Source: a virus
IMG/VR virus record: IMGVR_UViG_3300033388_002944
Coordinates: 1 to 23,252 of that record
Length of the DNA stretch: 23,252 nucleotides
Direction: 5' to 3' (one strand)
Position numbers and translations under genes: made by a program. The notes under the pieces are model-generated. The model saw only the letters and a program-made list of their open reading frames with translations, made no database searches and was not told the DNA's origin. This document shows, one piece after another, positions 20,500 through 23,252 of this stretch; the first letter of the stretch is position 1; every line of letters starts with the position of its first letter.

Positions 20500-20505
20500 T
20501 TAACT

Positions 20506-20570
20506 TTTACACAAAATATGTTTACAAATTGTGTATAATTTGTGTATAATATGTCAAACCAAACAAAGGA
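20506..20570 (+). promoter_or_regulatory. Promoter with operator-like repeats upstream of parA
   Basis: A -35-like TTTACA (20521-20526) and a perfect extended -10 (TGTG then TATAAT, 20545-20550) are 18 bases apart. A second TATAAT lies at 20534-20539. TTGTGTA occurs directly at 20529-20535 and 20540-20546, exactly 11 bases apart, and inverted as TACACAA at 20508-20514. The repeats overlap the promoter elements, so a DNA-binding protein would block transcription. AAGGA at 20566-20570 serves the ATG at 20576. Autoregulation by the small protein downstream of ParA is inferred. Confidence 0.75.
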
Positions 20571-21574: not shown

Positions 21575-21783
21575 ATGAGAAAAATACTATAACTCTCCCT
21601 GCAGGTACATATTGTGTAGTTGTTGGTGTAGGTGTGTATGATTCTATGAGAGCATTTTGTAATAATAATGTAGATGTTGTTATTGGAAATAATTTATCTA
21701 AGGATTTTCAAAAACCATTTAAAGATTTACCTACTTTTAGAGATATAGAATTTTCAGGCAAGTACAAAAAAGGCAAGAGATGA
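21565..21783 (+). CDS. Hypothetical small protein
   Basis: A 72-aa protein: a beta-like N-terminus (TITLPAGTYCVVVGVGVYD), a central NNNVDVVIGNN segment and a basic C-terminus (SGKYKKGKR). GGGGGA at 21550-21555 precedes the ATG. It ends by overlapping the nuclease start as ATGA. No family recognised. Confidence 0.6.
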   Translation: MDVDEKNTITLPAGTYCVVVGVGVYDSMRAFCNNNVDVVIGNNLSKDFQKPFKDLPTFRDIEFSGKYKKGKR

Positions 21784-22208
21784 AAGAACTTGAACATGAT
21801 GAACAGGTGACTGTAATCTCTTGGGCTGATTCAAATGTATCTAAATACCCTCAGTTAAGATGGCTACATGCTATTCCAAATGGAGGTCACAGGTCAAAGG
21901 CTCAAGCAGGTAAGCTCAAAGCTGAGGGGGTGAAGAGTGGTGTGGCTGATTTATGTTTACCAGTAGCTCGCAGAGGTTACAATGCTCTGTATATAGAGAT
22001 GAAGTATGTAAACAGGTTTAGAGCTACTAAAACCAAAGATACTAGACTCACTGCAGATGAGATTTACATAGTGGCTAGAAAAAATCAAAGTAAGCCTCAG
22101 GGTGAGTTTGAGAAGTTTTGTGATACAGAAAAGAACCTGTATCAGATATGTGGAAATAATGAGAGTGCTATTGCTTTGCTGCAGTGGTATTTGGAAGAGG
22201 AGAAATAG
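21780..22208 (+). CDS. VRR-NUC domain nuclease
   Basis: A 142-aa protein with the VRR-NUC core: E8-Q9 in the first helix, IPNGGHRSKAQAGKLKAEGVKSGVAD (about residues 32-57), D57, and the E73-M-K75 motif of the PD-(D/E)XK fold. This phage nuclease family acts on DNA, often branched or damaged ends. The usual downstream S-x-x-Q element appears only near 104-107 (SKPQ), after a stretch of about 28 residues rich in Lys, Arg and Thr that looks like an insertion. The start overlaps the previous stop (ATGA). It ends AIALLQWYLEE, the normal C-terminal helix. Confidence 0.88.
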   Translation: MKELEHDEQVTVISWADSNVSKYPQLRWLHAIPNGGHRSKAQAGKLKAEGVKSGVADLCLPVARRGYNALYIEMKYVNRFRATKTKDTRLTADEIYIVARKNQSKPQGEFEKFCDTEKNLYQICGNNESAIALLQWYLEEEK

Positions 22209-22210
22209 AT

Positions 22211-22525
22211 ATGAAAGTAGAATGGATAAACATCAAAGATAAAATGCCATCTAGTGGAAAGAGAGTTTTGATTGTATATAAAAATAGTCTAGGTAAAAAC
22301 AGAATTGTAATAGGTCATCATACTGAAAAATTTACAGATGAAAATTATGATATGGATGGAGAATTTTTTGAGTATGATGAAAAAAATGATATGTATTATG
22401 TTCCTAAAGGATGGTATGAAAGTTCTTATTCACATGAAGAATATTATGGGTATTGGTTAGAAAATCAAGATGTACTCTTTTGGGCTGAAGTACCAGAATC
22501 ACCACTAAGCATAAGGGATAAGTGA
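22211..22525 (+). CDS. DUF551 domain protein
   Basis: A 104-aa protein beginning VEWINIKDKMPSSGKRVLIVY, the characteristic start of DUF551 (W.....P..G..VL). It ends in VLFWAEVPESPL, the equivalent of the family's HW.PLP.PP terminus. A loop rich in acidic and aromatic residues fills the middle. The family is common in phage early regions and its function is unknown. The ATG at 22211 follows GAGGAG at the end of the previous gene. It overlaps the next start by TGATG. Confidence 0.8.
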   Translation: MKVEWINIKDKMPSSGKRVLIVYKNSLGKNRIVIGHHTEKFTDENYDMDGEFFEYDEKNDMYYVPKGWYESSYSHEEYYGYWLENQDVLFWAEVPESPLSIRDK

Positions 22526-22767
22526 TGCACAAGCGAACATGGGAAAAAGCTAATACTAAAATATGGGATGAAGATGATGAATATAGATATTTTGCTGTAT
22601 GTTTAAAATGTGGGGTAGATGAAAGCGAAGTGGTAAAGAGTACAGAAATATCAAAGCCCGCTGATGATAAAATAAAACCAAATTGTGCTTACTGCAAAAC
22701 AGATATGAAAGTTATAAGAGTTTGGAAAGGCAAATCTACAACATTTAATATTAAGAAAAATAACTAA
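22525..22767 (+). CDS. Small zinc-ribbon protein
   Basis: An 80-aa protein with CLKC (C26, C29) and CAYC (C54, C57), a four-cysteine zinc ribbon. The ATG at 22525 overlaps the preceding stop (TGATG). The N-terminus is rich in Trp, Glu and Asp, and the C-terminus is basic. Function unknown. It is the last gene before the rho-independent terminator. Confidence 0.7.
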   Translation: MHKRTWEKANTKIWDEDDEYRYFAVCLKCGVDESEVVKSTEISKPADDKIKPNCAYCKTDMKVIRVWKGKSTTFNIKKNN

Positions 22768-22785
22768 TTAAAATCTTTAAGCTTT

Positions 22786-22820
22786 AAAAAGGTGATGCCC
22801 TTGTTTTGGGTATCATTTTT
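22786..22820 (+). terminator. Rho-independent terminator
   Basis: TGATGCCC (22793-22800) pairs with GGGTATCA (22808-22815) with one G-U pair, loop TTGTTTT, followed by five T residues (22816-22820). AAAAA at 22786-22790 lies on the other side, so it could also work from the opposite strand. It closes the parA-to-zinc-ribbon operon. Confidence 0.85.
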
Positions 22821-23029
22821 CGTTTAAGGTTTGAAACTTAAACTTAAACAGATTTAAGGTTCAGAAACTCCCTCCCTCGTTAAAGTCAATAGAACTTCCA
22901 TTATGTAAACCCACACTTTTTAAAGTTGTTACCAACACTCTAGCAAATGCTTTCTTAAAGTATGGGTTTAATCTTGGTTTAATATTATCTTTGTTAAAGT
23001 GTGTGTCAATTCAATATAAAAGGAATGAT
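22821..23029. repeat. Non-coding iteron-like repeat region before the last gene
   Basis: TTAAAGT occurs four times in the same direction (22880, 22920, 22955, 22994), with spacings of 40, 35 and 39 bases. Copies 2-4 form CTTT-(2-3)-AAAG dyads. Upstream are direct copies of TTTAAGGTT (22823, 22853), with two CTTAAAC words (22837, 22843) inverted against GTTTAAG (22822). AAACCCA (22908-22914) also faces TGGGTTT (22963-22969) across the region. There is no open reading frame. It may be an operator array or replication origin. Confidence 0.6.
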
Positions 23030-23252
23030 ATGAAAGAAATGAGTTTAGTAGACTTTTTAAAAAAAGTTGGTGGTAAAGAGAGTGATATTGTTGAGTATGA
23101 TGGAAAAGAGGCTTTAAAAGCTGTTGAGAGTGATGGTGATGCACTGCAATATGTGAAAGAGCAGACTCAAGATGTTTGTTTAAAAGCTGTTGAGAGTGAT
23201 GGTTATGCACTGCAATATGTGAAAGAGCAGACTCAAGATGTTTGTTTAAAAG
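23030..23252 (+). CDS. DUF4116-like repeat protein (partial, runs off the window)
   Basis: The ATG at 23030 has AAAAGGA just upstream. After a 28-residue start (KEMSLVDFLKKVGGKESD, then IVEYDGKEA) it enters near-perfect 22-residue repeats of the form LKAVESDG-x-ALQYVKEQTQ, then DVC. This pattern matches DUF4116-type repeats, which occur in multicopy arrays of unknown function in bacteria, phages and giant viruses. Two full units and the start of a third are visible, and the frame continues beyond the end. It sits alone behind the repeat region, so it probably has its own control. Confidence 0.8.
   Translation, partial: MKEMSLVDFLKKVGGKESDIVEYDGKEALKAVESDGDALQYVKEQTQDVCLKAVESDGYALQYVKEQTQDVCLK
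23113..23252 (+). repeat. 66-base tandem DNA repeats inside the DUF4116-like gene
   Basis: Units at 23113-23178 and 23179-23244 differ at one base (G23138 versus T23204, changing Asp to Tyr), and a third begins at 23245. Since 66 is a multiple of three, copy-number change keeps the reading frame. Confidence 0.95.

Follow-up and report, generated by a model that had tools for sequence, protein, structure and literature searches.

The intergenic stretch between positions 22768 and 23029 (plus strand) of the phage sequence described here is probably a promoter-operator region with sites of the repressor or activator type, which heads a gene block beginning with a DUF4116-like gene. Judged from the sequence, it is most probably a promoter-operator region of an ordinary phage type and not a new kind of system. 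If this reading is right, the stretch would contain a main regulated promoter for a poorly known group of T7-like phages with partition genes, and its sites would make up a short list of testable targets in the search for the switch protein. The whole stretch of DNA analysed, referred to as the window, is an IMG/VR record of 23,252 bp, a fragment from which about a third of the genome is missing, some 11 kb beyond 23252 to judge by relatives of 34 kb.

Genomic context of the control region

The window represents part of a T7-like phage, as it encodes a head-tail adaptor, a major head protein and a lysozyme, which are followed by ParA, then a small protein and a number of other small genes. The ParA-like protein has 214 aa (PF13614/CbiA; phrog_164, E 3e-35), and its gene lies 2.3 kb upstream of the repeat array discussed below. 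No regulator gene is visible within the window. Positions 21780-22208 encode a 142-aa protein of phrog_824 with a weak Holliday-junction-resolvase-like match, relatives of which occur in at least 127 viral-contig stretches.

A single relative with the control region was found, IMGVR_UViG_3300026533_000001 (G006; 34,008 bp). It has matching par genes, with a ParA 52% identical to that of the window, and one further small gene separates these from the control region downstream. Searches with ParA, the phrog_824 protein, and the major head protein found ParA and the control region together in this relative only, and a search of plasmid and phage records with the control region gave no match. Relatives of the head protein were absent from GTDB contigs, and neither they nor the core pattern appeared among 399 genomes from the order to which a Sulfurimonas genome belongs, both searches being run without a positive control. 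Another viral sequence, L131 (G002), is related through its head protein (78%) and lacks a ParA match; its ORF translations suggest instead an early region on the opposite strand with large replication-like genes.

The control region is located between an 81-aa ORF (22522-22767) and the DUF4116-like gene, with no other long intergenic stretch at the right-hand end of the window, and has a GC content of 0.30 versus 0.37 for the window. RNA folding predicts, at 22788-22820 on the plus strand, a 13-bp hairpin ending in TTTTT, a probable terminator of the upstream genes that was not listed by a consensus terminator scan. Around it, the word TTTAAGNTT is found five times within 22776-22861, at 22776, 22823, and 22853 on the plus strand and at 22834 and 22840 on the minus strand. 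The control region thus holds five of the six copies of this word in the window and, in the relative, five of the eight in the stretch compared, a concentration reached in both cases by none of 2,000 shuffles. By comparison of the two phages, TTTAAGNTT is better conserved than the other repeat of the control region, TTAAAGT.

The TTAAAGT array

A preliminary description had reported four TTAAAGT words in this non-coding region, all in the same direction and nearly regularly spaced, three of them extending to CTTT-(2-3)-AAAG dyads. All of this holds: the words begin at 22880, 22920, 22955, and 22994 on the plus strand, at intervals of 40, 35, and 39 bp within one 262-bp intergenic stretch, and the dyads are present at copies 2, 3, and 4. 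An additional dyad of this form, the fourth, lies at 22782, and the dyad count of the control region was reached by none of 2,000 shuffles. TTAAAGT occurs 14 times on both strands of the window (6.8 expected), and the remaining ten copies are all within ORFs, so that the word does not show in other intergenic regions the density which the same description had named as evidence against a function.

None of 5,000 dinucleotide shuffles of 22768-23029 contained four copies of TTAAAGT, the maximum being three, and none of 20,000 shuffles contained any 7-mer four times at a spacing of 30-45 bp; these chance figures are somewhat generous, as the limits of spacing were set after the data had been seen. 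No second 7-mer array of this kind occurs in the real window, and of the 66 arrays in 1.24 Mb of phage and bacterial sequence matched for AT content, none has irregular spacing. The array is therefore real, and not due to chance. Other four-copy TTAAAGT arrays, among the matches listed from 2.9 million viral contigs, are mostly regular repeats with a spacing in multiples of three; a few are irregular (L041, L057), and none of those listed lies beside the conserved promoter described below.

The flanks of the four words are poorly alike when compared in direct register (2-7 of 15 positions identical per side). This feature, together with the absence of the array from the relative, is what would be expected if the words shared no function and had merely coincided in an AT-rich promoter region, an explanation that the shuffles and the AT-matched background render very unlikely. 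The same dissimilarity bears on the proposal that the words form either a repressor array or iterons. The second part of this proposal fares badly, and a regular direct-repeat (iteron) reading of the words was rejected because their flanks are not identical; the first part, operator-like sites, is supported by the element described below.

A longer element containing the words

Copy 2 is closer to copies 3 and 4 when it is read on the opposite strand. The sequence AAAGTGTGGGTTTA (22919-22906, minus strand) and the sequence AAAGTATGGGTTTA (22957-22970, plus strand) are identical in 13 of 14 positions, and a third, partial copy, AAAGTGTGTGTCAA, lies at 22996-23009. TTAAAGT is thus better read, from these alignments, as a portion of a longer element, AAAGTRTGKGTTTA, present in three copies spaced by 51 and 39 bp. 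In this arrangement, copy 2 (22906-22926, minus strand) includes the plus-strand TTAAAGT at 22920-22926 and a perfect dyad, ACTTT-TT-AAAGT; copy 3 corresponds to CTTTCTTAAAGTATGGGTTTA (22950-22970, plus strand); and copy 4 corresponds to CTTTGTTAAAGTGTGTGTCAA (22989-23009, plus strand). Copy 1 (22880-22886, plus strand) has neither the extended element nor the CTTT-(2-3)-AAAG dyad.

The inverted pair with 13 of 14 identities, along with a third partial copy within 170 bp, was found in none of 120 shuffles, and the inverted pair alone in one of 300. With three mismatches allowed, elements of the AAAGTRTGKGTTTA type are no more frequent across the window than expected by chance, so the claim for the element rests on its cluster. 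Part of the similarity between copies 2 and 3 falls in blocks that are kept in the relative (GTAAACC and TATGGGT), and it may reflect the promoter itself.

The predicted promoter and its conservation

A promoter block, TATGGGTTTAATCTTGGTTTAATAT, is located at 22961-22985 (plus strand), between copies 3 and 4, and contains a predicted extended -10, TGG-TTTAAT, at 22975-22983. Its counterpart in the relative, TATGGGTGAAATGATGGTATAATAT, is identical in 20 of 25 positions without gaps, and both fit an extended -10 consensus, TATGGGTnnAATnnTGGTwTAATAT; a consensus promoter scan did not list a promoter at 22961-22985. The position of the extended -10 would set the start of transcription near 22990. 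Such a start would in turn place copy 3 over the -35, with its TTAAAG (22955-22960) in the place of the -35 hexamer and separated by 17 bp from the -10, and copy 4 over the start of the transcript, directly past about 22990. The inverted copy 2 precedes copy 3 by about 50 bp. Repressor sites on regulated phage promoters are arranged as copies 2-4 are here. A promoter-like match in antisense (TTGACA-16/17-TAATAT/AATATT, 10/12) also covers copy 4, at 22981-23009 on the minus strand, with no nearby gene on that strand.

The DUF4116-like gene (23030-23252, plus strand; PF13475, E 6.2e-8) begins 47 nt past the -10 with an ATG at 23030, preceded by an AAGGA ribosome-binding site at 23020-23024, and is truncated by the end of the contig. 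Near-identical (98%) tandem repeats of 66 bp occupy this gene from 23113 to 23252, and the contig ends within them; these repeats may have halted the assembly. An origin, a centromere, and the control region of the DUF4116-like gene had all been considered possible beforehand, and the last is the best supported by the conserved promoter block and by the distance from the -10 to the gene.

Two other features of the control region are conserved. The first is an inverted pair, GTTTAAG and CTTAAACTTAAA (22822-22848, plus strand), with a start-to-start distance of 15 bp, whose sequence and spacing are as in the relative; the best ungapped score of this match is 19, and none of 300 shuffles exceeded 17. 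The second is the block ATTATGTAAACC (22900-22911, plus strand), which is identical in the relative, follows the start of CTTAAACTTAAA at a distance of 63 bp in either phage, and has no other exact copy in the window or in the relative. A search for the promoter block with ATTATGTAAACC nearby returned only these two phages. ATTATGTAAACC and the promoter block are about 40 bp farther apart in the window than in the relative, and these additional bases contain TTAAAGT copies 2 and 3.

Conservation, the lack of which had been named beforehand as evidence against a function, is therefore split: the surrounding control region is conserved, but the TTAAAGT word is missing from the one relative compared, whose control region has neither the array nor the CTTT-N2/3-AAAG dyads. 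This absence, and the fact that copy 1 does not fit, count against operators. However, operators diverge together with their regulators, and the comparison is with one relative only, which keeps the promoter block. The first gene after the promoter in this relative is Arc-like (phrog_3180, 'Arc-like repressor', E 0.0017; phrog_19878, E 1.8e-7), in line with a regulated promoter as far as these profile matches indicate.

Two properties of a multi-operator promoter can be recognized in the window: a predicted promoter with a conserved extended -10 adjoins or overlaps the sites, and several related dyad-like sites occur together beyond chance. According to the model proposed here, the terminator-like hairpin would close the upstream genes, and the extended -10 would initiate transcription near 22990. 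A DNA-binding protein, probably a phage repressor and not an activator, would then occupy cooperatively three operator-like AAAGTRTGKGTTTA sites: an inverted one at 22919-22906, one over the -35 at 22957-22970, and one over the transcript start at 22996-23009. The TTAAAGT words would be the most conspicuous part of these sites, and occupancy by the repressor would block or tune the promoter, which would drive the DUF4116-like gene plus whatever follows.

The inverted elements could also act at the RNA level, with 22906-22970 forming a long hairpin in the transcript, as an attenuator or leader. The stem has 13 of 14 pairs and its fold has a z of -3.3, attained by one of 200 shuffles. Nevertheless, this segment precedes the predicted start and would therefore be outside that transcript, an Rfam search gave nothing near threshold, and in the relative the stem is down to a few pairs with a fold near chance; an RNA element is thus unlikely.

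Replication origin and centromere

The AT-richness of the control region, its two repeat families, the conserved 63-bp spacing of its blocks (about six helical turns), and its position directly following the partition genes would suit a replication origin, in which an initiator of the phage would bind the repeats as iterons and melting would take place in the AT-rich TTTAAG stretch. As in the iteron origins of plasmids and phage-plasmids, the window has short words in the same direction and an AT-rich stretch. Iterons are usually longer and closer-set than these words, which are 7-mers with dissimilar flanks at 35-40 bp, and direct repeats longer than a 7-mer, as an iteron origin would have, were not found. 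Unlike such origins, the stretch 22768-23029 lacks the DnaA box TTWTNCACA, no recognised rep gene is present in the window (which ends at 23252) or among the scanned proteins of the relative, and the array is not conserved in the latter. The GC skew, proposed earlier as a check for an origin, keeps its sign and gives no support. Matches to the DnaA box are found instead upstream of parA, along with the 100-bp segment of highest AT content in the window, so there is only a small chance that the control region is the origin. It is also quite unlikely that a new family of phage-plasmids has its replication control centre here, as an origin combined with a genetic switch. TTAAAGT would then mark initiator-repressor sites, and the combined structure would be built from the conserved TTTAAG/CTTAAA inverted pair, the promoter, and ATTATGTAAACC at its distance of 63 bp from the pair.

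The region upstream of parA, about 2.4 kb from the array, holds a candidate origin or centromere at 20505-20550. It consists of TTTTACACA at 20505 and two copies of TTGTGTATAAT at 20529-20550, with an 11-bp period, which on the minus strand read as the DnaA-box-like TTATACACA. The candidate adjoins the AT-richest segment mentioned above and overlaps a parA promoter that is a strong match (TTTACA-18-TATAAT). The TTGTGTATAAT repeats are kept in the relative, the only sequence returned by a search with their pattern. Like type Ib ParA/parS systems, the window encodes, near the array, a ParA of only 214 aa followed by a small protein, and the proximity of the parA gene to the array had raised the possibility that the array is the centromere (parS) of the phage. 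Nevertheless, in type Ib systems the parS/operator repeats are upstream of parA and over its promoter, a position held by the conserved repeats at 20529-20550 and not by the array, and TTAAAGT is not common to both places. The array is therefore highly improbable as a centromere, and the TTGTGTATAAT repeats appear to be a better candidate for a centromere, operator, or origin.

Comparison with known regulatory sites

The sites of HP1043/HsrA from Helicobacter pylori consist of TTTAAG-5bp-TTTAAG or TTTAAG-5bp-CTTAAA (PMC8345958). Conserved TTTAAG and CTTAAA words are likewise found near the promoter in the window, but their spacer is of 8 bp instead of 5, the comparison being with the consensus of H. 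pylori, which may not be the host of the phage. No exact match with the 5-bp spacing exists in either phage, the best one being TTTAATCTTGGTTTAAT at 22967, with two mismatches.

The promoter-operator arrangement proposed here is closer in layout to lambda OR/OL and to the Arc/Mnt promoters of P22, where several similar sites lie within about 100 bp over the -35 and the start of a promoter heading a gene block. Lambda operators are spaced more narrowly than the 51 and 39 bp of the window and, unlike OR/OL, the window has one inverted site; this comparison is one of layout, and not of operator sequence. The likeness to P22 Arc/Mnt extends to the gene block of the relative, whose first gene resembles Arc.
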